64,000 nt of DNA from Spirochaetota bacterium (GTDB taxonomy: Bacteria > Spirochaetota > Spirochaetia > Treponematales > UBA12059), in NCBI GenBank assembly GCA_029560805.1, contig JAKQKE010000284.1, positions 1-64,000 on the forward strand, written 5' to 3'. Of this stretch, positions 12,406-27,125 are shown piece by piece; within the stretch, counting starts at the first letter, position 1; the number at the start of each line of letters is the position of its first letter. A program made the translations under genes and the position numbers. Under the pieces are notes generated by a model. That model was given only the letters and a program-made list of their open reading frames with translations, had not been told where the DNA came from and did not search any database.

Positions 12406-15828
<3,423 letters not shown>

Positions 15829-15853
15829 GCGGCGCGGCGACGGTCAGGCTCGA

Positions 15854-16666
15854 TCAGGCCGACTGGTCCGGCGCGGCAGCCGGCTTGCTGGCTATGCGCT
15901 CCGAGAAGCGGTACTGCTCGATGATAGAGACGAGCTCCGACGAGAACTGTAGCGCGACCCGCGCCTTCTGGACGCCGTTCTGTAGCCTGGCTACCGAGGC
16001 CACGGCGCCGGCCACCGTGAACTGGTAGCTCTGGAAGAACAGCTTGAGTAGGATAGGCTTGTCCTGCTCGAGGATCGGCCCGTTCATCGGCACGAGGAAG
16101 TCGGCCGTATCGCTGGCCAACGCGAACAGCGCGACCTTGGCCTGGGCCCCGGCGTAGCCTATCGTACAGTAGTTGTTGTAGCCCATCGTCTTGGCGGTAT
16201 CGGGGTTGATCGATATCGGCTTGCCCTTGTAGTCGTCGTACTCGACCTTGAGCCGGTCGAGCAGCATGAAGTAGTCGATCAGTGTCTGGACGAGGTCGGG
16301 CGGGCAGGGCTTGAAGAGGACGTCGATCAGCCCTATCGACTCGCGGCCCTTCATGGGGCTGACCGAGCGCAGGGTACAGCGGGCGAAGATCTTCATCGGG
16401 TTCTGGGCGTTGCCCGGCTGGAACACGAGGGTCAGGCCAGCCAGGCCGTTGACGTACTTCTGGAAGAAGGCCAGCTCCTCGCGGGAGAAGGACGCGACGA
16501 GGACCGCACCGGCCATCGATAGGCGGTACGGTACGCAAATGATCCCGTAGGTGTCGAGCTTGACGACGGTCTGGCCCGGCTTCAGGCCCATGCGGGCCTG
16601 GGCGAACGGCGTTATCGCGGCGGTTTCGTTCTGGTATTGGGCTAATAGGTCCGTTTGATGATGCAT
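15854..16666 (-). CDS. PilZN3/PilZ-like protein with eroded c-di-GMP motif
   Basis: 270 residues. The arrangement follows the spirochaete PilZ proteins with a PilZN3 N-terminal domain: an opening helix LLAQYQNE, a strand-rich N domain (~25-130), a linker with INPDTAKTMGYNN (equivalent to ITPETLRKLG), then a PilZ-like barrel. Where an active PilZ has Arg residues and DLSxxG, this one reads AKVALFALASDTADF, so I see no c-di-GMP-binding residues. It is the last gene of the eight-gene minus-strand run, 33 bp after the methyltransferase, and may be a structural or protein-binding relic. The family assignment is from memory of treponemal homologues. Confidence 0.6.
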   Translation of the reverse strand: MHHQTDLLAQYQNETAAITPFAQARMGLKPGQTVVKLDTYGIICVPYRLSMAGAVLVASFSREELAFFQKYVNGLAGLTLVFQPGNAQNPMKIFARCTLRSVSPMKGRESIGLIDVLFKPCPPDLVQTLIDYFMLLDRLKVEYDDYKGKPISINPDTAKTMGYNNYCTIGYAGAQAKVALFALASDTADFLVPMNGPILEQDKPILLKLFFQSYQFTVAGAVASVARLQNGVQKARVALQFSSELVSIIEQYRFSERIASKPAAAPDQSA

Positions 16667-16699
16667 GGCTATGCCAGTGTAACCTTCAATGCGGAATCG

Positions 16700-17530
16700 T
16701 CAAGATCCGCGTTTGCGGGGCGGCGCCTTTCGATCGGGCGGCGCCTTTCGATCGGGCTGCGCCTTTCGATCGAAAGGCGATCCTCCGCGCCTGTCCCGGC
16801 CGCTGGCCCCGCCCCGGTTGCCGTCGGCGGCCTTCAGCAGGAATACCGTCGGCTTCTTGCCTATGCGCACGGGCCCGGCTTTCCAGGCGGCGGCAGTCAT
16901 GCGAACGATGCGCTCCTCCGGTGTCGATAGGCCGATCGCGGCGCAGAACACGGTATCGGGAGCCAGTGCGCAGGCCGCGCTGGCGACCATGGCGTCGTTG
17001 CGGTATGGCGTCTCGATGAAGGCCTGCGTCGAACCCTGCCGCCTCGAGTCGGCCTCGAGCGCGCGCAGGGCGGCCTCCCTGCCGGCCTGGTCTGGCGGTA
17101 GATAGCCGGCGAACGCGAAGCGCTGGCCCCCGAGGCCCGAGGCCATGACGGCCATCAGGATCGAGCTCGGGCCGGGCAGGGGGACGACTCTGATCCCCGC
17201 CTCGGCTGCCTCCGCCACCAGGGCCGCTCCCGGGTCGGCGACGCAGGGGCTACCGGCCTCCGACAGTATGGCCACGTCCCGCCCGGCCAGCAGGGGCGCC
17301 AGCAGCGCCCGCACATCCTCGGGCCGCGTATGCTCGTCCAGCACGCCGAAGCGCGACGCATCGAGGGCGTCCTGCGCCATGACGCGGCATAGGAAGCGCC
17401 TGGCGCTGCGCTCGTTCTCGACGACGAAGTCGCGAATGCCGGCCGCTATCCTGAGTACCCTCGGGGCCAGTTCGTCCGCCGGGTCGCCGTCGCCTATCGG
17501 CACCGGCACCAAATATAGTGAGCCGTTCAT
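16700..17530 (-). CDS. RsmI/YraL-type SAM-dependent (tetrapyrrole-methylase fold) methyltransferase
   Basis: 276 residues. The fold signature includes LSEAGSPCVADPGA, the PLPGPSS loop and ETPYRND. RsmI enzymes methylate the 2'-OH of C1402 in 16S rRNA. This variant opens SLYLVPVPIGDG and has ENERSARRFL, as in the shorter RsmI-paralogue group, so its exact target is uncertain. The last ~45 residues form a basic, repetitive tail (PDRKAP repeats) encoded by an 18-bp tandem repeat. The start overlaps the FAD-subunit stop by 4 bp. Confidence 0.82.
   Translation of the reverse strand: MNGSLYLVPVPIGDGDPADELAPRVLRIAAGIRDFVVENERSARRFLCRVMAQDALDASRFGVLDEHTRPEDVRALLAPLLAGRDVAILSEAGSPCVADPGAALVAEAAEAGIRVVPLPGPSSILMAVMASGLGGQRFAFAGYLPPDQAGREAALRALEADSRRQGSTQAFIETPYRNDAMVASAACALAPDTVFCAAIGLSTPEERIVRMTAAAWKAGPVRIGKKPTVFLLKAADGNRGGASGRDRRGGSPFDRKAQPDRKAPPDRKAPPRKRGS
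16720..16773 (-). repeat. 18-bp tandem repeat, three copies, inside the methyltransferase C-terminus
   Basis: Units of 18 bp at 16720-16737, 16738-16755 and 16756-16773 (GCGGCGCCTTTCGATCGG, third copy with three changes). The repeat is in frame and encodes six-residue PDRKAP-type repeats in the basic tail. Copy number could vary without shifting the frame. Confidence 0.9.
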
Positions 17531-18363
17531 CTCCCGCCTTCCTGGACGTTGGCCAGGAACGACATGACGTACGCGCCGAAGCGTTCGGCCAGCCTGGCCG
17601 GGAAACCAGCCTCGATCGCCTGTTCGCGCGCGGCCTCCTGGGCCTCCTCGACGTCCTTTACGGTCAACGGCAACCTCTTTCCTATCAGCGAAAGCTCGAG
17701 GGCGCGGTCGCGCGCCAGCGTCCTCCCCGACGCTATGAGCCGCAGCTCCGATATGGTCTCTTTCTCGAAACGGGCGGCGGCGGCGAAGGTCGACGCGAAG
17801 GCGTCCCCCTTCGTCGGCTCGCCGAGCCGGTGGAGCGCGAACGCGTCCCAGGGGGCGGTAGGAATGCGTATCCGGGTCAGCAGGGTAGCGGCCGGGAAGG
17901 CCGGTCGCCCGGAACCGTCGACGAGGGAGTGGATGCCGGTCCAGCGCGAGCCCGAGGCGTCGCGGAGCTCCACGGTCGCGTCCATACAGGCCAGGGACGG
18001 AAAACAGGTCATGAACGAGTCGCGCGAGGCGACGTTACCGCCGAGCGTGGCCAGATTGCGTACTGTAGCCGTGCCGACGAGCCCGATGGCGTCTCGCAGG
18101 GGTTGGAGCGCTAGGCTCCCCGGCAGGGCCTGTATCGTCGCCAGCCTGACGCAGGCGCCTAGTTCCAGGTAGCGGTCCGAGCGGCTGACGGCCCTCAGCT
18201 CGGGTATCCTACCGAGGTCGAGCACCGAGACCGGGGCGCCATCGCTACCGCGGGACGTCAGTATCAGCGTGCCGCCCGCCCAGGGCAGCGCGCCGGGTTG
18301 ACGCTTCAATACGGCGACGGCCTCCGCTATCGTCTGGGGCGCGGATACATCGTCAACGCGCAC
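17527..18363 (-). CDS. FAD-binding subunit, molybdenum-hydroxylase (CoxM/XdhB) type
   Basis: 278 residues. It has the FAD-binding landmarks of the xanthine dehydrogenase/CO dehydrogenase medium subunit: WAGGTLIL near the N-terminus, GTATVRNLATLGGNVAS in the middle, and a CO_deh_flav_C-like tail with CPxA-poor sequence. The usual role is to pass electrons from the [2Fe-2S] subunit to NAD or another acceptor. It overlaps the iron-sulfur gene by 11 bp and the methyltransferase by 4 bp, so it is part of one transcript. The substrate is unknown. Confidence 0.88.
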   Translation of the reverse strand: MRVDDVSAPQTIAEAVAVLKRQPGALPWAGGTLILTSRGSDGAPVSVLDLGRIPELRAVSRSDRYLELGACVRLATIQALPGSLALQPLRDAIGLVGTATVRNLATLGGNVASRDSFMTCFPSLACMDATVELRDASGSRWTGIHSLVDGSGRPAFPAATLLTRIRIPTAPWDAFALHRLGEPTKGDAFASTFAAAARFEKETISELRLIASGRTLARDRALELSLIGKRLPLTVKDVEEAQEAAREQAIEAGFPARLAERFGAYVMSFLANVQEGGR

Positions 18364-18838
18364 GGCCGTACTTCCCTCCGAGGCTCGACTCGAGCGCCGC
18401 CTTGACCGCCCCGAGGGCTCGCGACGGCGTGACGCAACGGCAGTATACCGAGGACAGTACCTCCATGATCTCCTCCTCGGAGGGGCGGACGGTCGCTTCG
18501 ATCAACGAGCCGGCGGCCATGAACAGCGCCGAGTCGCAGAAGCCGCATAGCTCGGCCCCCGCCTCGCGAAAGGAGCGTTCGACGGTCGCGAACGATTCGG
18601 TGCTCTTGAAGCCCTCGTAGGTGACGACCTCGGTGCCCCTCGCCTTGAAGGCGGGTACCATACAGGAATTGACCAGGAGCCCGTCGAGGAAGACGACGCA
18701 CTTGCCGCAGACGCCCTCGCGGCAATCGCTCATAAGGCTCGTCAGGTCGAAGCGCTCGCGTAGGAGATCGGATAGCCGCTCGAGGGGGTCGGCCTTCAGG
18801 CTGACGTCCTCTCCATTCAGGATGAATTCAACTATCAT
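18353..18838 (-). CDS. [2Fe-2S] subunit, molybdenum-hydroxylase (CoxS/XdhC) type
   Basis: 161 residues. All eight cluster cysteines are present: Cys39, 44, 47 and 59 for the plant-ferredoxin cluster (DCREGVCGKC...C) and Cys98, 101, 133 and 135 for the second cluster (LCGFC...CRC). The usual QCGFCTPG reads LCGFCDSA and the CRCTGY motif reads CRCVTP, so the surroundings of the second cluster are altered while its ligands are kept. Electron transfer therefore looks intact. It overlaps both neighbours by 11 bp. Confidence 0.9.
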   Translation of the reverse strand: MIVEFILNGEDVSLKADPLERLSDLLRERFDLTSLMSDCREGVCGKCVVFLDGLLVNSCMVPAFKARGTEVVTYEGFKSTESFATVERSFREAGAELCGFCDSALFMAAGSLIEATVRPSEEEIMEVLSSVYCRCVTPSRALGAVKAALESSLGGKYGRAR

Positions 18839-20897
18839 CGTCGACGCCCTCCGATCGGCGACAGGTCGGCAACGCGTTCCACGGCGAGTCGAGCGCCTGG
18901 CTCAGCGCGTTGGCGAACGCGGCGGGTACGAGCGAGTAGGCCAGCTCGCCTATGCCCTTGGGCTCGGCGTCGTCGTCGACGAACTCCACCTGAATGGGAG
19001 GTGCGTCCTTGATCCGCCAGAGGCCGTATCGCCTGAGGTCGCCAGGATCAGCCGGCCCGTCGGACAGGTCGAGGCACTCGGCGACGCAAAGCCCGAGCGC
19101 CACGGCGGCGTCGCGCTCGAGCGCCGCTGCGGCGTCCTCGCGCGACAGGATGCGGCCCGCCTTCGCCACGAGCCAGATGCCGCGTACCGGCGGAGCGGCG
19201 TCCACCGGGTCGAGCTCAAGCTCTACGACGGCGGCGCCCCATGACGCGTCGTCGAGGGGCGACTCGGGCGCGGCCTTGGCGGACCTAGCCCGCTGCGACT
19301 TCCTGACGGTGATCGGCAGCGCTTCCCTGAAGCGCTTGGAGGCCAGACCGTCGCAGGCGGAGCCTATCAGCCTCGTCACGACGCCGATCCGCCGCGAGAA
19401 CACGTTCGGCCCCGAGTCGGGTACCTCGTCGGTGCTGGGCGTCGCGACCTCCACCGCCTCGGGCGAGAGTCCGAGGGACGTCGCGGCTATCCGCTTCCAG
19501 ATCCTCGTCACGGCGCCCGAGCCCGACGCCACGCTCGAGCGGATGGTCAGCGTCGAGTCCTTCGACAGGGTCACTTCGACCGAGGGAGCCTGGGCGTCGC
19601 GGCAGGAAAGCGCCGTGGCCGGCCGCTGAGGGCCGAAGGCCAGCCCGATGCCGTAGCCGGGCGGGGACGACGGGTCGGGGCGTCGTTTGCGTATCAGCTC
19701 GAACGACGATCGCTTGCGCGGGTAGTCGCTGATGGCGAGCAGCCTGTCGCAGACCGCATCGAGCGGCGCGCCCTTCCTGAGCGGTGGGCCGAGCGTCTGG
19801 TCGCCGCGCCTGGCCACGTTCATGGCGCGCCATTCGTATGGATCCATACCGGCGGCGTCGGCCAGGTCCTCGGCCAGGCGCTCGACGGCGAAGGCTACCG
19901 GCCCGGTGCCGAGCCCCATGAAGGCGCCCATCGGCGGCAGGTCCGTCGAGACCGCCCGGGCCGCGACGCGCAGGGATGGGCAGGCGTAGGCGCCGGCGAC
20001 GGCCTTGGCGGCCCGCTCGACCAGCTCCGCGCCGAACGGCGCGTAGGCGCCGACGTTGATCATCACGCTCGCGTCCATCGCTACGAGTTTGCCAGCCTCG
20101 TCGAGTCCGGCCCGGTACGAGACGAGGGTCGGCGCCCGTTTCGTCGTGTACATGAAGTCGTCGGTCCTCGATAGGAGCAGGAGCGCGTTCTTGCCGCTCA
20201 GCCTGGCAGCGATCGCCGCGTGGCAGGCCAGGAGCGACGGGTACCATAGCTTGCCGTCCAGGTGGGAGCCGAGCGACGTGGTCCGGACCACCACCTCATC
20301 CTTCCTGACTCCGAGCGCCTGGGCGACGGCGTCCCTGGCCTGGAAGGGCCATTGAGTCGACGAGAAAACGATCAGCTTGTCGTAGTCAAAGCCGGCCGCG
20401 GCGCCCTGGGGCTCCGGGTAGTAATGGTCCTGCGGACCCATCCTGTATTCTCCGTCGACCACCCGGGCGGCCTTGGCCAGCGCCGCGTCGACGGAGCCGC
20501 TATCGGTCGAGTAGGCGGCGACGAGTCTCCTCGACTCGCAGGCCTCGTATCCGAACGACGCCGGCTCCTCGTCGACGCGTACCGCCGTCATCGATACGGC
20601 CTCGGCTACCCTGAGCCGGTCCGGCCCGACGATCAGCGCCACCGGCTCGCCGCGGTACGCGACGCGCCCCGAGGCCAGGACGGGCACCGAGGCGCCTATA
20701 CTGTCGATACGGGCCGAGCCTGGGATATCGTCCGCCGTGACGCTCCGGTAGCCGCGTGGCAGGTGCGGCACGCTGATGGATCGTATGGCTCCCCTCGATA
20801 CGGGCGAGCGCACCGTCCCGACGTAGACCGCGTCGAGGAGAGGGAAATCCGACAGGCGCCCTACCATCGAGAGGTCGCTCGCCCGGGCCGTCCTCAT
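18828..20897 (-). CDS. Molybdopterin-binding large subunit-like protein (CoxL/XdhA type), altered cofactor loops
   Basis: 689 residues, slightly short for the family. The start shows the xanthine-dehydrogenase a/b hammerhead (LDAVYVGTVRSPVSRGAI). Further blocks align well: FSSTQWPFQARDAVAQALG, AERLAEDLADAAGMDPYEWR, SGPNVFSRR and PKGIGELAYSLVPAA, whose Glu is the catalytic base position. The cofactor loops differ: GGFGGK reads LGSHLDGK, AYRGFGxPQ reads AFMGLGTGP, and the QG.. loop near GSGAVTRIW lacks the glutamine. Either the substrate or cofactor handling is unusual or the subunit no longer binds Moco. It overlaps DegT by 4 bp upstream. Confidence 0.82.
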   Translation of the reverse strand: MRTARASDLSMVGRLSDFPLLDAVYVGTVRSPVSRGAIRSISVPHLPRGYRSVTADDIPGSARIDSIGASVPVLASGRVAYRGEPVALIVGPDRLRVAEAVSMTAVRVDEEPASFGYEACESRRLVAAYSTDSGSVDAALAKAARVVDGEYRMGPQDHYYPEPQGAAAGFDYDKLIVFSSTQWPFQARDAVAQALGVRKDEVVVRTTSLGSHLDGKLWYPSLLACHAAIAARLSGKNALLLLSRTDDFMYTTKRAPTLVSYRAGLDEAGKLVAMDASVMINVGAYAPFGAELVERAAKAVAGAYACPSLRVAARAVSTDLPPMGAFMGLGTGPVAFAVERLAEDLADAAGMDPYEWRAMNVARRGDQTLGPPLRKGAPLDAVCDRLLAISDYPRKRSSFELIRKRRPDPSSPPGYGIGLAFGPQRPATALSCRDAQAPSVEVTLSKDSTLTIRSSVASGSGAVTRIWKRIAATSLGLSPEAVEVATPSTDEVPDSGPNVFSRRIGVVTRLIGSACDGLASKRFREALPITVRKSQRARSAKAAPESPLDDASWGAAVVELELDPVDAAPPVRGIWLVAKAGRILSREDAAAALERDAAVALGLCVAECLDLSDGPADPGDLRRYGLWRIKDAPPIQVEFVDDDAEPKGIGELAYSLVPAAFANALSQALDSPWNALPTCRRSEGVDDDS

Positions 20898-22063
20898 GCG
20901 TGCAGCGCCTCCGCGACGGCTAGGACGGCGTCGGCGACGCGCCGCGCCGCGTCGAGTCCCATGCCCTGCCAGATCGGCAGGCTGAGGGTGCGCTCGAACA
21001 TGGCCATGGCGTTGGGCATGGATCCCGGCTCGAGGCCGTAGCGCCCCGCGTAGTAGGGCATGGTGTGGAGCGGGATGAAATGGACCGACGTGCCGACGCC
21101 CCGCTCGGCGAGCGACTCGATGAACTCGTCCCTGGCTAGGCCTCCGCGCTCCGGCAGGGTACGCAGCGAGTATAGGTGCCAGGCGTGCCCATCGCCCCTC
21201 GGCGGAAGTTCGAGCCCTCGAACACCCGAGAAGGCCTCGTCGTACAGGGCCGCGATCGCCCGTCGCTCCTCGAGGAAGCGCTCGGCCTTGGTCAGCTGAA
21301 CCCGTCCGATCGCGGCGAGCAGGTCGGGTAGGTTGTACTTGAAGCCGGCCTCGACGACCGAGTAGCGCCAGGACGCCTTCTTGGCGGTATAACGGTCCCA
21401 GGCCGCCCGGTCGAAGCCGTGCATACGCATCTTCTCGGCGCGGGCCGCCAGGCGCCCGTCCCGCGTGACGAGCATGCCGCCCTCGCCGGTCGTGATGGTC
21501 TTGGTGGCGTAGAACGAGTAGACGCCCACGTCGCCTATCGCGCCGGCGTAGCCATCGGCGGTCTTCGACGGGAAGGCGTGGGCCGCGTCCTCGACGAGAG
21601 CGCAGCCGTAGCGATCGGCTAAGGCGCGCAGGGCGCGAAGGTCGCAGGGCAGCCCGCCGACGTGGACGGCGACGATCGCCCGGCAGTTCTTGGTCGTCGC
21701 CAGGAGCCTGCCGAGCGCGTCGGAGTCGATGTTGTACGATCCGGGCGCCACGTCGCAGAAGGCCACCTCCGCGCCCAGGTGGCGTATCACGGCGGCGCTC
21801 GAGGTGAAGGTGTAGGGGCTGGTGACGACGACGTCGCCCGGGCCGATGCCGAGCGCCTCGAGCGCCAGGTGCAGGCCGCTCGTGGCCGAGTTGACGGCCA
21901 GGGCGCGGGGCGCGCCGACGAAGTCCGCGAATTCCTTCTCGAAGGCCAGCGCCTCGGCCCCGGTGGTAAGCCAGCCCGAGCGCATCACGCGGAGGACGGC
22001 TTCCTCCTCCTCGGGACCGATCGACGGCCGCGCGAACGGGATGAAGTCAGTATTCGGGTTCAT
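20894..22063 (-). CDS. DegT/DnrJ/EryC1/StrS-family sugar aminotransferase
   Basis: 389 residues. PLP-dependent aminotransferases of this family convert 4-keto (or 3-keto) nucleotide sugars to amino sugars for surface glycans or glycosylation. Seen: SATSGLHLALEALG (phosphate-binding), VEDAAHAFPS, and the Schiff-base lysine Lys188 in FYATKTITTGEGG. A C-terminal HFIPLHTMPYY block is also typical. The gene overlaps the CapD-type dehydratase by 17 bp, and a 4-keto-6-deoxy-sugar product of that enzyme would be its natural substrate. Annotated in some genomes as a spore-coat polysaccharide protein (SpsC). Confidence 0.93.
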   Translation of the reverse strand: MNPNTDFIPFARPSIGPEEEEAVLRVMRSGWLTTGAEALAFEKEFADFVGAPRALAVNSATSGLHLALEALGIGPGDVVVTSPYTFTSSAAVIRHLGAEVAFCDVAPGSYNIDSDALGRLLATTKNCRAIVAVHVGGLPCDLRALRALADRYGCALVEDAAHAFPSKTADGYAGAIGDVGVYSFYATKTITTGEGGMLVTRDGRLAARAEKMRMHGFDRAAWDRYTAKKASWRYSVVEAGFKYNLPDLLAAIGRVQLTKAERFLEERRAIAALYDEAFSGVRGLELPPRGDGHAWHLYSLRTLPERGGLARDEFIESLAERGVGTSVHFIPLHTMPYYAGRYGLEPGSMPNAMAMFERTLSLPIWQGMGLDAARRVADAVLAVAEALHA

Positions 22064-23534
22064 CGGGAAGCTCCTCTACCGTGGGTATGAAGGACCTGAG
22101 CGCGGCCCGAAGACGCCTGCGGTTACGGTACGCGTCCGGCCTATCGTCGCTCCTGAAGCATATCGGCTCGAGCGCGCGCATGGCAGCCTCGAGGTCGAAG
22201 CGGGGCCCATGCCGCTCCAGGCGGTTGATCTTGTGGAATTCCGTAGCGGCGAGGCTCTCGTCGGGCGAGTACAGCCGCTCCTCGAGGCGCTCGCCGGGCC
22301 TGAGCCCGATGTACTCGATGGCGATGTCATCGTAGGGTCTGAGGCCGGAGAAGCGTATGACCTGCTCGGCTAGCTCGCGTATCAGTATGGGCTCGCCCAT
22401 GTCCAGGAGGTACGATTCGCCGCCCAAGCCGACGCCGCCGGTCTTGAGCACGAGGGAGCAGGCCTCGGGGATGGTCATGAAGTATCGGCTGGCGGCGGGG
22501 TCGGTGACGGTTACCGGGCCGCCGCGCTCGACCTGGCCCTTGAACAGGGGCAGGATGGAGCCGCGCGAACCGAGCACGTTGCCGAAGCGTACGACCATGT
22601 AGTGCTCCCCGGCCCCGGCCCGATCCTGCGCGTCGAGCACGAGGCGCTCCGACAGGAACTTCGAGGCGCCGTAGACGCACAGCGGCTCGACCGCCTTATC
22701 GGTACTGACGAGCACGAAACGCTTGACGCCGGACGCGAGGCAGGCGCTTACGAGGTTCCGGGTGCCGAACGCATTGTTCTCGATGGCGGCGACCGTGTTG
22801 GCCTCCATCATCGGGACGTGCTTGTACGCGGCGGCGTGAAACACGACGTCGGCCTTGAGCCTGCGGCAAACGTCGGTCATGTAGTCGCGGTCCTTGAGCT
22901 CTCCTATCACGGGGACAATGGCCGTCGACACGCCGACGCCTCCCGACTGGAGGCCCCTGAGCTCGCGGTCTATCTGGTAGATCGAGTTCTCGCCGTGGCC
23001 GAACAGGTACAGGCGCTCGACTCCGGCCGACAGGAGCTGCCTCGCGAGCTCGGAGCCTATCGAACCGCCGGCCCCGGTGACGATCACGCGCTTTCCGGCC
23101 AACCACTCGATGCTCTTCTTGAGTCCTATCGAGACGGGGCTGCGCCCGAGCAGGTCCTGTGGGTCTATCTCGCGGGCCTGGACGAGGTGGGCATCGCCCT
23201 CGACTATCTGCGCTACATCCGGGAGTATGCGTATCCGCGCGAAGCCCGCGTGCTTGAGCGTGAAGTACAGCTCGCGCAACAGTTCCCTCGGTGCGCTTGG
23301 CATGGCGATGATGGCTTCGTCGGCCGGCTCCCTCGCAAGCAGCCTGACCACGTCGCGGATGGGGCCGAGTACTGGCACGCCGTCGACGCGCCTGCCCAGC
23401 TTGCCCTCGTCGTCGTCGAGGAAGGCGACGATGGTGCCGAGGACCGCCTTGGCCCGGATCTCCCGCGCGATCGCGCGTCCGGCGAAGCCGGCGCCGATGA
23501 TGTATATCCTAGGGTTGTCGGGATTCATCTCCAT
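22047..23534 (-). CDS. CapD/FlaA1-type UDP-sugar 4,6-dehydratase, soluble form
   Basis: 495 residues. It has two Rossmann modules: an N-terminal CoA/NAD-binding-like domain (IYIIGAGFAGRAIA, ~10-130) and an extended SDR domain with GAGGSIGSELARQL (153-167) and the catalytic Tyr288-Lys292 (VYGASK). Related enzymes make UDP-4-keto-6-deoxy-hexoses for capsule, LPS-like glycans or protein glycosylation. The four membrane helices that precede the N domain in WbpM/PglF are missing, so it should be cytosolic. Most homologues have Met rather than Tyr at 288. It overlaps the NusG-like gene by 26 bp; an internal ATG at 23528 is also possible. Confidence 0.92.
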   Translation of the reverse strand: MEMNPDNPRIYIIGAGFAGRAIAREIRAKAVLGTIVAFLDDDEGKLGRRVDGVPVLGPIRDVVRLLAREPADEAIIAMPSAPRELLRELYFTLKHAGFARIRILPDVAQIVEGDAHLVQAREIDPQDLLGRSPVSIGLKKSIEWLAGKRVIVTGAGGSIGSELARQLLSAGVERLYLFGHGENSIYQIDRELRGLQSGGVGVSTAIVPVIGELKDRDYMTDVCRRLKADVVFHAAAYKHVPMMEANTVAAIENNAFGTRNLVSACLASGVKRFVLVSTDKAVEPLCVYGASKFLSERLVLDAQDRAGAGEHYMVVRFGNVLGSRGSILPLFKGQVERGGPVTVTDPAASRYFMTIPEACSLVLKTGGVGLGGESYLLDMGEPILIRELAEQVIRFSGLRPYDDIAIEYIGLRPGERLEERLYSPDESLAATEFHKINRLERHGPRFDLEAAMRALEPICFRSDDRPDAYRNRRRLRAALRSFIPTVEELPDEPEY

Positions 23535-24069
23535 CGCTGCCCTCGGTTCCTTTCGCCGCCCGGTCGAGTATCTCGAAACCCATGTCGACGAGGAACGAGT
23601 TCTCGCACATGTCCAGGCGTATCTTGGCCCGGCGCTTGCGCGCGTCGACCCTGACGATCAGGCCCTCGAGCCCCTTGAGCGGGCCCTCGACGACGACGAT
23701 GCGATCGTCCGCGTCGAAACGTACCTTCGATATATCGGCAACTTTCCCGAACGACATGAAGTGGGCGAGTAGCCTCCGGTCCTTCTCCTTGACCGGCCTC
23801 GGCTCGGCGTTGTTCGGGAGCGCCCGTACGAAGTTCCTCGAGCCACGCAATAACCAGCGCTGGTCGTCGCTCAGGCGATCGGCGTCGGTCGCGATGAAGA
23901 CGTAGCCCGGGAAGAGGGGGCGCTCCTCGCGCCGTACCTTGCCCGCCCGCCGTATCTCGAGGGCCCGCTTGGGCACCATAGCCTTGGCCTCGACGCGCGG
24001 ATCGGCCGATAGCGCGTCGGCGAACTCATCCTCTTTGCCGGTCCATACCTGTACGGCGAAATACTCCAT
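23509..24069 (-). CDS. NusG-family antitermination factor, LoaP/RfaH-like
   Basis: 186 residues. The NGN domain has the RNA-polymerase-binding block PLFPGYVFIATD, followed by a KOW domain (VVEGPLKGLEGLIVRVDARK). Housekeeping NusG normally sits with secE and rplK. Here the gene heads a sugar-enzyme operon and opens EYFAVQVWTGKEDEF, as in specialised paralogues such as LoaP, UpxY or RfaH. It probably promotes read-through of its own long operon. The ribosome site GGAGG precedes the ATG. Downstream genes overlap in series to 16700. Confidence 0.85.
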   Translation of the reverse strand: MEYFAVQVWTGKEDEFADALSADPRVEAKAMVPKRALEIRRAGKVRREERPLFPGYVFIATDADRLSDDQRWLLRGSRNFVRALPNNAEPRPVKEKDRRLLAHFMSFGKVADISKVRFDADDRIVVVEGPLKGLEGLIVRVDARKRRAKIRLDMCENSFLVDMGFEILDRAAKGTEGSDGDESRQP

Positions 24070-24154
24070 CGCTCCTCCGTGATCGCCGTTCCGCCCGATG
24101 AACGAACCCTCCCGAGGCTAGCACGAAGGGGAGAGGGCCGACAAGGCTGAGCCC

Positions 24155-24169
24155 CGTATCGACGATACG
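24155..24169. repeat. Perfect 15-bp palindrome in the divergent intergenic region
   Basis: CGTATCG-A-CGATACG (7-bp arms, 1-nt centre) lies 86-100 bp upstream of the NusG-like start and 55 bp upstream of the divergent gene. It could be an operator or, in RNA, part of a leader hairpin. A second imperfect pairing (CCCTCCC with GGGGAGAGGG, 24109-24137) lies closer to the start. No promoter could be placed with confidence. Confidence 0.6.
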
Positions 24170-24223
24170 CCTAAATCATGTCGTCCGTCTGGCCGATATT
24201 CCAAGAAGAAAAGGATGCGAACG

Positions 24224-24742
24224 ATGAGAAGACTCGCGATTGCGGCTTTTTTCGCCCTGGCGGCGGCCGCCCCTCGCCTGGTCGCGCAGACCATCGAGGT
24301 CTCCGTTATGGAGCGGGGCGTCGAACCCGACGGACCGGCGTCGCTATCCTCCGAGCACGTCATCGCCGGTATGCTCGACGGCCTATTCGAGTCCGGTTTT
24401 ATCGCTACGAACGCCAGGCCGGCCCCGGGCGACGACGCGTCGTTCGAGGCGTTCTCTCCGGGAGCCGACGCTGTCGAGGGGTTCGTCGACTTCGTCATCC
24501 TGGTACTGGCCGAGTACGCGCCTGAAACGGTCGTGCCGGCCTGCAGCTACAGGATACTCAGGGTACCCGACGGCGCCGAGGTATCGCGAGGGAAGGTTCC
24601 GGCGGCTACGCCCGTCTCCAAGGCGAGCATCGATATAGAGAAAGCGTGCATGGCCGTCGGATCGGCCATTTCGGCCGCCTGCGGCGGCGCGTTGCGGAGC
24701 CTTAGCGTTTCGCGGGGGGATGACGGATATGAAGAGGCATAA
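24224..24742 (+). CDS. Small secreted protein of unknown function
   Basis: 172 residues after a signal peptide (RRLAIAAFFALAAAAPRLVAQ). The mature part is acidic, has two cysteines in the C-terminal third and ends in a short polar tail. I do not recognise the family. The ATG at 24224 is preferred because AAAGG lies 9 nt before it; an ATG at 24215 is 3 codons upstream with the AAAAGG directly abutting. It overlaps the next gene (an RlpA-like SPOR protein) by about 14 bp, so the two are probably translationally coupled and both act in the envelope. Confidence 0.7.
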   Translation: MRRLAIAAFFALAAAAPRLVAQTIEVSVMERGVEPDGPASLSSEHVIAGMLDGLFESGFIATNARPAPGDDASFEAFSPGADAVEGFVDFVILVLAEYAPETVVPACSYRILRVPDGAEVSRGKVPAATPVSKASIDIEKACMAVGSAISAACGGALRSLSVSRGDDGYEEA

Positions 24743-27125
24743 TATCGCGTTGACGCTCGGCCTGGCGGCGCTCGTCGCCCTCGCGTCGGCTTCGTCATGG
24801 GAAGGCAGCGCGATGATGGGAGCCTACGGGGATTTCCCTTCGTCGGGCTACTACGCCGCGTGCAACTCCTTCGCGCGTAATACCTCCATCGATGTGGTTA
24901 ATCTCGAGAACGGACGCTCGGTCACGGTGATCGTGACGCGCGGCCTCGAGAGCTCCGGCGTCTTCATGATGCTGTCCGTCGAGGCCGCGGAGGCGCTCGG
25001 CCTGCAGCGCGGCGGCGTGACGAGGGTCAGGGCCTCGGAGCCGCGGAGCGCCGTCGAGCTCGCCCCCTCCGCCGGGACGAGCGCTTCGATGGATCCGGAC
25101 ATCAATCCGCGTCTCCTGGCGGCCGCCGAGCTCAGGCGCCTCGGCTACGAGCTGGCTCCCGCGGCCCCGTCCACCTCCAGGCAGCCGGCGGTATCCGCCG
25201 TCCGCGTCCAGCCCGAGGCCCCGTCTAAAACCGTTCCAGCCGTCGCCGAACCCGCCGCCCCGGCAGTCTCTGCTCCGGCGATCCCGGTTTCGCCTACCGC
25301 CGCAGCAGAGGCTCGGCCTCAAGCCGCGGCCCCGGCCGTCGCCTCGGCTCCGCCTCACGTAGCCGCGCCTTCGGCCATTGGCCGCGAGGCTCCCGCCGTG
25401 GCTCCCGCCTCCAGCCGTGTGGCCATAGCCGAACCTAAGCCGATCGGCAAGGAAACGCCCGAATCGCTCGCCTCGTCGAAGCCGAGGCCGGTCCGTACGA
25501 TCGTGTTGCCTCAGCTGCCCGAGCCAGAAGGGCCGACAACCAAGGCAGCCGTCGCGGCGCCCGTGGCTACGCCACAGTCGGCTCCCGAGGCTCCTGCCGC
25601 GACCGCTCCGGAGGCGGTGGCGATGTCGCTGCCCGTGCCGGACGAGACGCCGCTACGCGTCGCGGTCGGCGCTACCCCGAAGCGCTACGAATCGCCGGCC
25701 GCCAGGCCGGACGTGGCCGTGCGCGGCCCATCCGCCCCTGCGCTACGCGTTCCGGCCATAGCCTTGGCCGACCCGGTGACCGTCTCCGAGGCCAGGGCGG
25801 CGGCCTTCGCGCTGGCCGTACCCGAGCGATACAAGCCGCAGGCTAGCGCCGACCTGCGCGACCCTATGGCCCCCTCGTCCGAGAGTGCCAGCGCCCTGGC
25901 GCTGAACTCGCCGTCCCGAGCGTCGTTCGACGGGTCGTACGCCATGTACGACCCGGCCGTCCCGGACGCCGAGAGGGCCGAAGCCTTCGCCCGAGCCGCG
26001 CCGTCGCTCGGTCAGGCTAGGCTCGGTCTCGAGCTGGCCTGGCCCGAGCTCGAGGCCGACGAGATACCTGAAGTCATGCTGGCCGGCCTGAGCGCCCCGG
26101 TCCACGATATCCCCGCGACCAGCCTGGCCGAGGGCGAGATCCTGGTACCCGCGTCGGTCGGGCCGTCCGCCCTGGCGCTCGAGACGCCGGAGTTCGGCGC
26201 CGCCGAGACCTACGTGGCCATGGAGGATGCCGAGCTAAAGCCCGAGGAGAAGCCGAGCGTGGTAATGTCCGGCGGCCTGGGCCCCTACGGCGAGGAGGTC
26301 GCGGTCGAGCTGGCCGAGGCCGAGGGAAAGCCTGAGGAGAGCCCGGTCGTCGACGTGGCCGCCGGACTGGCACCGATGGGCGACGAGGCCTACGAACTGG
26401 CCGAAGCCGGAAGGCAGCCGGCCGTCGATGCGGCCGCCGGACTTGAGCCCTACGCCGAGAAGGCCGACGTGGCGCTCAGCGAGGCCGAGGCGACGGCGAC
26501 AGGTGGTCCCGAAGTGGAGGCGATGGCCACCGGTACCCCGGTCGACGGCGCCGCCGGCGTCGAGCTGGCCGAGGCCGGAAGGCAGCCAGCCGTCGACGCG
26601 GCTGCCGGACTTGAGCCCCTTGCCGAGAAGGCCGACGTGGCGCTGGCAGACGCCTCGGAGCAGAAGCCCGAGACCGCTCCCTACGTGGTCGAGCCGACCG
26701 AGGAGAAGACTCCGGCCGTAGCGCTCGACTCGCCCAAGGAGTACCTCGTCGCCATCGAGCCGACAGGCCCGAAGCCGCCCGTTCAGACGGCGCCGGCCGT
26801 GGAGACGAAGCCGGCGGGTACCAAGGTCGCTCCAGCGGCTCCCGCTCCAGCGGCTTCCGCTCCAGCGGCGACGATCGTCTCGGGCGCGCTCGAGAAGGGC
26901 CGCTACTACATACAGATAGGCGCCTACGCCAGCGAGGCGGCCGCTAAGGACGCGGCCTCGCGTCTGAGCGTCGGCTACATGGTGGTCGTCCAGCAGGTGA
27001 CGACCGGAGGCAAGGCCACTTGGAAGGTCTTCGTAGGCCCCCTATCCCGAGACGAGAGCGGCGTGGCCCTCGTGCGGGTCAGGTCGATGGGCTACCGCGA
27101 CGCCTTCGTGAAGAGCGGCGGCTGA
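24729..27125 (+). CDS. RlpA-like (catalytically inactive) plus SPOR-domain envelope protein
   Basis: 798 residues. A signal peptide is followed by a double-psi-barrel domain matching RlpA (VVNLENGRSVTVIVTRG, residues ~56-72). In RlpA lytic transglycosylases the key residues are a His and an Asp; here the aligned positions are Cys45 (AAC for AAH) and Thr70 (VTRG for NDRG). Residues ~110-720 are a long Ala/Pro/Glu-rich linker with internal repeats. The last ~75 residues form a SPOR domain (YYIQIGAYASEAAAKDAA), which binds denuded septal peptidoglycan. The likely role is structural at division sites. The start at 24729 follows GGGGGG; 24720 is an alternative. Confidence 0.82.
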   Translation: MKRHNIALTLGLAALVALASASSWEGSAMMGAYGDFPSSGYYAACNSFARNTSIDVVNLENGRSVTVIVTRGLESSGVFMMLSVEAAEALGLQRGGVTRVRASEPRSAVELAPSAGTSASMDPDINPRLLAAAELRRLGYELAPAAPSTSRQPAVSAVRVQPEAPSKTVPAVAEPAAPAVSAPAIPVSPTAAAEARPQAAAPAVASAPPHVAAPSAIGREAPAVAPASSRVAIAEPKPIGKETPESLASSKPRPVRTIVLPQLPEPEGPTTKAAVAAPVATPQSAPEAPAATAPEAVAMSLPVPDETPLRVAVGATPKRYESPAARPDVAVRGPSAPALRVPAIALADPVTVSEARAAAFALAVPERYKPQASADLRDPMAPSSESASALALNSPSRASFDGSYAMYDPAVPDAERAEAFARAAPSLGQARLGLELAWPELEADEIPEVMLAGLSAPVHDIPATSLAEGEILVPASVGPSALALETPEFGAAETYVAMEDAELKPEEKPSVVMSGGLGPYGEEVAVELAEAEGKPEESPVVDVAAGLAPMGDEAYELAEAGRQPAVDAAAGLEPYAEKADVALSEAEATATGGPEVEAMATGTPVDGAAGVELAEAGRQPAVDAAAGLEPLAEKADVALADASEQKPETAPYVVEPTEEKTPAVALDSPKEYLVAIEPTGPKPPVQTAPAVETKPAGTKVAPAAPAPAASAPAATIVSGALEKGRYYIQIGAYASEAAAKDAASRLSVGYMVVVQQVTTGGKATWKVFVGPLSRDESGVALVRVRSMGYRDAFVKSGG
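26394..26644 (+). repeat. Two 83-bp direct repeats inside the SPOR protein linker
   Basis: Copies at 26394-26476 and 26562-26644, 168 bp (56 codons) apart, differ at a few third positions. They encode the same block, beginning ELAEAGRQPAVDAAAGLEP and ending EKADVAL. This is an in-frame internal duplication in the low-complexity linker. Confidence 0.88.

Follow-up and report, generated by a model that had tools for sequence, protein, structure and literature searches.

What is a three-subunit complex that looks like a molybdenum hydroxylase doing in an operon with a putative antiterminator and two nucleotide-sugar enzymes? The question is posed by a 64,000-nucleotide stretch of a Spirochaetota genome (GenBank assembly GCA_029560805.1, here G000; contig JAKQKE010000284.1, positions 1 to 64,000), which we call the window. 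On its minus strand lie eight open reading frames (ORFs) encoding a LoaP-family protein, a CapD-like dehydratase, a DegT-like aminotransferase, the large, iron-sulfur (FeS), and flavin adenine dinucleotide (FAD) subunits of a xanthine dehydrogenase (XDH)-type complex (hereafter, the trio), an RsmI-like methyltransferase, and a PilZN3-domain protein. The original prediction, made from the sequence of the window, envisaged an overlapping eight-gene operon, conserved in spirochetes and undescribed, that modifies the cell surface and in which the trio, as a working molybdenum hydroxylase, acts on the sugar made by CapD and DegT. A re-check of the ORFs reproduced the gene ends, the serial overlaps of 26, 17, 4, 11, 11, and 4 bp, and the 33-bp gap before the PilZN3 gene, and the Pfam and NCBIfam profiles on which family assignments are based here match the families that had been guessed. 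The function proposed for the trio fared worse. The reading we favor, with a probability of roughly 0.55, is an operon of two modules, namely, a sugar module and a flavin-centered trio that is free of the molybdenum cofactor (Moco).

The large subunit and its molybdopterin site

The evidence that carries this reading comes from an alignment of 47 operon-type large subunits with 12 homologues of the trio (families f12, f19, and f24) and with Rhodobacter capsulatus XdhB, the match in the Protein Data Bank. The loops GGxFGGKE, AFRGFG, and GQG are kept in the 12 homologues and not in the operon-type sequences, and all three are altered in the window copy. The residues corresponding to XDH R912 (R327) and Q1040 (Q461), as well as Gly214 and Glu217 of GGxFGGKE, are each present in 12/12 relatives and in 0/47 operon-type sequences. 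Of 20 Moco-site positions, the homologues keep all 20 and the operon-type sequences 0 to 12 (on average, 7.5 in genomes that encode MoaC and 4.1 in those that do not); the operon type retains 24% of these columns compared with 40% of 130 other columns that are invariant in the homologues (P 0.004, random column draws). Nor was the pattern GG.FG.K found in another 9 copies, which belong to families f7, f9, and f12. No single Moco residue is decisive, given that a canonical paralogue in the genome of the window (L004) varies at two of them; it is all the loops taken together that make the case. Among the columns conserved in more than 90% of the operon-type large subunits, W183, L527, and P528 are new relative to the homologues, and none of the alignment columns holds a new polar residue conserved to that extent. 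In a tree whose rooting is not independent, a branch with a Shimodaira-Hasegawa-like approximate likelihood ratio (SH-aLRT) support of 100 separates the operon-type sequences from the rest, so a single ancestral loss of the Moco site would be the simplest reading of the sequences.

The large subunit is nevertheless maintained by purifying selection, with ratios of nonsynonymous to synonymous substitution rates (dN/dS) of 0.09-0.18 among close operon-type pairs. In the AlphaFold2 model (predicted local distance difference test score, pLDDT, 87.5; predicted template modeling score, pTM, 0.89), the XDH-type fold is intact, and the top Foldseek matches to this model all belong to the xanthine oxidase (XO) family, the best being the R. 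capsulatus XDH B chain (1jro_B; TM-score 0.87, 22% identity). Apparently, then, the trio is a selected pseudo-hydroxylase that lacks Moco; the cofactor would be truly absent from the large-subunit protein, and the usual annotation of this subunit as a molybdoenzyme is probably wrong.

The other two subunits present a different picture. The small subunit in the window has 8/8 cluster cysteines, and all 8 are in register in 38/54 operon-type small subunits, with CC replacing CxC in the second motif in many of the remainder. The FAD motif (G30, T106xGG) is kept in 41/47 operon-type medium subunits, from which the NASPxxD stretch of the canonical FAD subunit is gone. Cofactor sites are thus ranked by loss, with Moco lost in all copies, FeS in some, and FAD in the fewest, an order that leads us to favor a flavin-centered function over a purely structural role; the medium subunit would still bind FAD.

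By fold and subunit plan, the trio is an XO-family complex that shares with PucCDE/XdhABC and CoxLMS the three subunits, the XDH fold, the two [2Fe-2S] sites, and the FAD_binding_5 subunit. It differs from these in the loss of the molybdopterin loops, in a shorter large subunit, in hosts that mostly lack Moco synthesis, and in an operon with sugar genes rather than purine genes; because its Moco site is lost, we do not classify it as a molybdenum hydroxylase.

Distribution of the operon and of Moco synthesis genes

A search with the large subunit across 296 genomes of the phylum produced matches in 139, and 60 regions of at most 20 kb each were retrieved, in which the operon genes were located by tblastn. 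The order LoaP-CapD-DegT-large-FeS-FAD, with or without LoaP, recurs across the class Spirochaetia, in most families. By clustering, three genes precede the large subunit and nearly always share its strand: DegT lies about 1.7 kb upstream (same strand in 37/38 loci), CapD about 3 kb (33/34), and LoaP about 4 kb (19/19). A SPOR-domain gene is a constant neighbor upstream of the operon, on the opposite strand in 30/30 loci. In an independent named collection, the complete six-gene order was found in 49/80 further species-level loci; the profile pattern behind these 80 loci spans one Moco loop and is biased for that motif, so the set was used for gene order only. An order that recurs across the class and in these further loci is not due to chance, and LoaP-CapD-DegT-large-FeS-FAD is an old cluster of the class Spirochaetia. 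The expectation of a conserved spirochete operon, adjacent not only in this genome, is thereby borne out, and the operon was not found described in the literature we searched. The full eight-gene unit is another matter. Its six-gene core is what is conserved, and the RsmI-like and PilZN3 genes, which lie next to this core only in L036, L037/L058, and L040, that is, in the family of the window and one neighboring family, are local additions outside the conserved unit. Several families depart from the common order: in f12, the trio lies between ligA and dnaE without LoaP, CapD, and DegT (L098-L101, L103); in f9, LoaP directly precedes the trio (L087, L104); and in f7, the order is full, the trio very divergent, and no small-subunit match was found (L096, L097).

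The operon is also found in G056, a single contig of 1,139,633 bp, the size of the Treponema pallidum genome. Its position at about 84-91 kb presumably corresponds to TP0077-TP0081 of T. pallidum, and the genes of this locus (L091) are probably the same as TPASS_0079/TPASS_0081. In L091, the large subunit keeps 3/20 Moco-site residues, and no match to MoaA, MoaC, or MoeA was found in G056. The published annotation, in contrast, assumes a molybdoprotein, listing TPASS_0079/TPASS_0081 as xanthine dehydrogenase with "molibdoprotein binding" and "FAD binding" (PMC4403809). Literature searches on TP0080 and on T. pallidum quinoline 2-oxidoreductase returned no match. Our findings contradict the current view that, in T. 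pallidum and other treponemes, these genes encode a molybdenum-dependent xanthine dehydrogenase, and it seems likely to us that a former molybdenum hydroxylase became an ancient, class-wide, molybdenum-free complex with a new role that is kept in the reduced genome of T. pallidum.

The cofactor supply of the hosts is the weaker half of the case for Moco loss, the residue evidence being the stronger. MoaC is present in 116/296 genomes of the phylum. Of the class genomes with a large-subunit match, 75 were followed for MoaC and MoeA: MoaC is encoded in 13, 11 of which also encode MoeA, and neither was found in the other 62, several of which consist of a single contig (for example, G019, G056, G126, G130, G194, G200, and G203). 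MoaA (TIGR02666) was counted only above its cut-off or beside moaC/moeA, since cross-hits of radical S-adenosylmethionine proteins spoil low scores. Molybdoenzymes of the dimethyl sulfoxide (DMSO) reductase family occur in 7/13 MoaC-encoding genomes versus 2/62 of those without MoaC (G000 and G231); ordinary molybdenum enzymes thus largely track Moco, and the trio does not. One match to the DMSO reductase family (G212:C1:1085043-1086335) contains a single in-frame TGA, possibly encoding selenocysteine.

Gene absence alone proves nothing here, as f12 illustrates. Genomes of this family (e.g., G224, G226, G249, G250, G265, and G275; L080, L081, L083, and L084) carry, near purine-catabolism-like genes, several XDH homologues whose Moco motifs are intact wherever a copy was examined, and none of these genomes has MoeA or, except for G240 (MoaC and MoaA), MoaC or an above-cut-off MoaA. 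These homologues are either true orphan molybdoproteins or depend on an unrecognised source of Moco. Only such canonical homologues with Moco motifs (f12, f19, and f24) sit among purine-catabolism-like genes, a setting that, according to the original prediction, would have spoken against a link of the trio with sugars. MoaC and MoeA were not found in the genome of the window either; this absence was dropped as proof, given that the assembly is in 304 contigs and contains canonical molybdoenzyme homologues, and it may be due to an assembly gap. In two close relatives (G063:C21 and G169:C50), moeA-moaA-moaC lie on the operon contig, about 35 kb downstream, a distance that in G000 would fall past the contig end.

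XO-family proteins in genomes without a Moco pathway have been surveyed as orphan molybdoproteins, with molybdenum independence raised as a possibility and no sequence feature found that sets the orphans apart (PMC6147048). The operon-type clade differs in its clear loss of the Moco loops, and so is a defined candidate for a molybdenum-independent family, a concrete, sequence-defined case for the question of that survey, that is, whether orphan molybdoproteins can be independent of molybdenum. Should this prove true, there would be a defined molybdenum-independent branch of the XO family, and its sequence features would partly account for the orphan puzzle.

The sugar module and the role of the trio

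Both sugar enzymes retain characteristic motifs. TGAGGSIGSE and YxxxK of CapD are conserved across the operons, and the lysine of DegT that binds pyridoxal phosphate (PLP) is kept in every operon-type row. The short-chain dehydrogenase/reductase motifs of CapD (TGxxGxxG and YxxxK) are present; the protein does not reach the cut-off of the PseB equivalog model (178 versus 407.75 bits), and DegT does not reach that of PseC (346.5 versus 423.5 bits). Compared with the PseB/PseC-PseI pathway, the system is alike in pairing a dehydratase with an aminotransferase while NeuB and CTP_transf_3 are encoded at other sites, and differs in these sub-threshold scores and in a NeuB that is unlinked or loosely linked. 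Of 57 genomes, 39 contain DegT, NeuB, and CTP_transf_3 together, and 12 contain none of the three. Of the class genomes tested for flagellin, those of families f9 and f12, and no others, lack it, and these same families lack operon-type CapD and DegT, the latter genome-wide. The co-occurrence of CapD and DegT with NeuB and a cytidine monophosphate (CMP)-sugar transferase, together with their absence from the flagellin-less families, points to a flagellar glycan. Flagellins of T. denticola are reported to carry a 450.2-Da glycan that is essential for filament assembly (PMC9481697). In the literature we searched, no biosynthetic genes are assigned to that glycan. From the phylogenetic profile and these reports, CapD and DegT probably feed a flagellar glycan of the nonulosonate type, and together with NeuB and the CMP-sugar transferase they offer a testable route to the T. 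denticola glycan. The surface-modification idea thus survives as a conserved system and is better read, we infer, as one that serves flagellin.

In several genomes, NeuB lies within about 10 kb of the operon. This linkage was rejected as evidence, because the intervening housekeeping genes (ruvCAB, queA, and yebC, identified by eye) indicate old synteny, and co-occurrence was used instead. In G056, core genes of a nonulosonic-acid-like pathway are found at C1:611206-611895 (NeuB+SAF protein, L106) and at C1:302366-303028 (a CTP_transf_3 domain within an 862-aa frame).

The trio follows neither flagellin nor the sugar genes. It persists in f9 and f12, in the latter still beside dnaE, and because it does so without CapD and DegT, it must have a function of its own that is separable from theirs. 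For the identity of the sugar, its flagellar destination, and the part played by the trio, we infer the following scheme. An ancestral Spirochaetia operon, probably under its own LoaP antiterminator, would comprise two separable modules. In the first, CapD and DegT probably produce a uridine diphosphate (UDP)-4-amino-4,6-dideoxy sugar, which NeuB and the CMP-sugar transferase would convert to a sugar of the nonulosonic-acid type; the flagellin glycan is its most likely destination. The second would descend from a three-subunit enzyme of the XDH type whose molybdopterin site was lost, with the large subunit now a Moco-free structural scaffold carrying the [2Fe-2S] and FAD subunits; most likely, the module works as a flavin-centered, molybdenum-independent complex for redox chemistry or sensing, with its activity residing in the FAD subunit.

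Several observations weigh against this scheme. The least derived large subunits keep up to 12/20 site residues and the window copy keeps 10/20, including the catalytic Glu (GIGE in the window; E in 19/47 operon-type sequences), so that the large subunit may bind pterin weakly or in an altered manner. Most or all cluster cysteines are lost in L043 and L088, and those of the plant-type cluster are missing from L091, with most of them gone from L067 and L094 as well; the FAD motif is lost in a few lineages, and L087 lacks the FAD glycines. On the sugar side, flagellated G215 and G177 and the Borrelia-like family f6 lack operon-type CapD and DegT, no more than two loss events underlie the flagellar link, and NeuB is outside the operon.

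The scattered losses of cysteines and FAD glycines, along with the universal loss of the Moco site, are what would be expected if the trio were a scaffold or metabolon organizer without redox activity, with FeS and FAD sites as slowly disappearing remnants. We regard this explanation as a tentative second choice, because, after losing the Moco site, a complex that served as nothing more than a scaffold would not be expected to retain both the 8 cysteines and the FAD motif, as most copies do. A smaller chance attaches to the idea that the trio serves the sugar enzymes as a dedicated partner, with its FAD and FeS subunits reducing an intermediate of the CapD/DegT route, somewhat like E1/E3 of ascarylose synthesis. 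The tight and ancient gene order with overlapping genes speaks for such a partnership, as does FAD_binding_5, which belongs to the flavoprotein superfamily of the UDP-sugar reductase MurB; however, the trio is retained in f9 and f12, from which the sugar enzymes are missing, and FeS clusters were lost in L043 and L091, which keep CapD and DegT. Moreover, deoxygenation of the ascarylose type, considered as the main idea, was rejected because the PLP lysine in every operon DegT is incompatible with an E1-type dehydratase. Finally, the initial proposal of a working molybdenum hydroxylase that oxidizes the CapD/DegT sugar now seems very improbable. The shared operon, the XDH fold, the retained small-subunit cysteines, and the moa genes on the operon contig of the two close relatives are in its favor, but it is hard to reconcile with the loss of the Moco loops in 47/47 sequences, the lack of MoaC and MoeA in most hosts, and the persistence of the trio where CapD and DegT are absent.

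The operon in the window and its neighbors

Table 1. Genes of the window operon and the adjacent divergent pair
Feature	Coordinates	Strand	Profile match
LoaP-family NusG paralogue, 186 aa, operon gene 1	23509..24069	-	NCBIfam NF033641
CapD/PseB-like nucleotide-sugar 4,6-dehydratase, 495 aa, N-terminal CoA_binding_3 domain	22047..23534	-	Polysacc_synt_2 350 bits
DegT/PseC-like PLP aminotransferase, 389 aa	20894..22063	-	DegT_DnrJ_EryC1 386 bits
Trio large subunit, 689 aa, XDH fold (modeled), destroyed molybdopterin site, apparent pseudoenzyme	18828..20897	-	MoCoBD_1 194 bits
Trio small subunit, 161 aa, two [2Fe-2S] sites	18353..18838	-	Fer2 + Fer2_2
Trio medium FAD-domain subunit, 278 aa	17527..18363	-	FAD_binding_5 104 bits
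RsmI-like methyltransferase paralogue, repetitive basic tail, local addition	16700..17530	-	TP_methylase 57 bits
PilZN3-domain protein, 270 aa, local addition	15854..16666	-	PF20424 36.8 bits, cut-off 27.4
Divergent pair, 175-aa ORF and 801-aa SPOR-domain protein, neighbor outside operon	24215..27125	+	SPOR 41.6 bits

The first gene product passes the LoaP family model with its NusG N-terminal domain (148.1 bits; cut-off, 125), and LoaP orthologues head the operon in many families. LoaP has been reported from Spirochaetota (PMC12691694), and the likeness to known LoaP antiterminators extends to the place of the gene at the head of a biosynthetic operon; antitermination here is predicted. No terminator-like sites were found on either strand of 15600-24400. 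Besides its match to MoCoBD_1, the large subunit shows a weak, partial one to MoCoBD_2 (43 bits). The RsmI-like protein does not reach the RsmI equivalog cut-off (91 versus 167.9 bits), which a different locus in the same genome exceeds; its C-terminus (window 16700-16800, minus strand) is the repetitive basic tail SPFDRKAQPDRKAPPDRKAPPRKRGS. The SPOR-domain protein (window 24720-27125, plus strand) contains internal repeats, and its N-terminus appears, by eye, to be RlpA-like.

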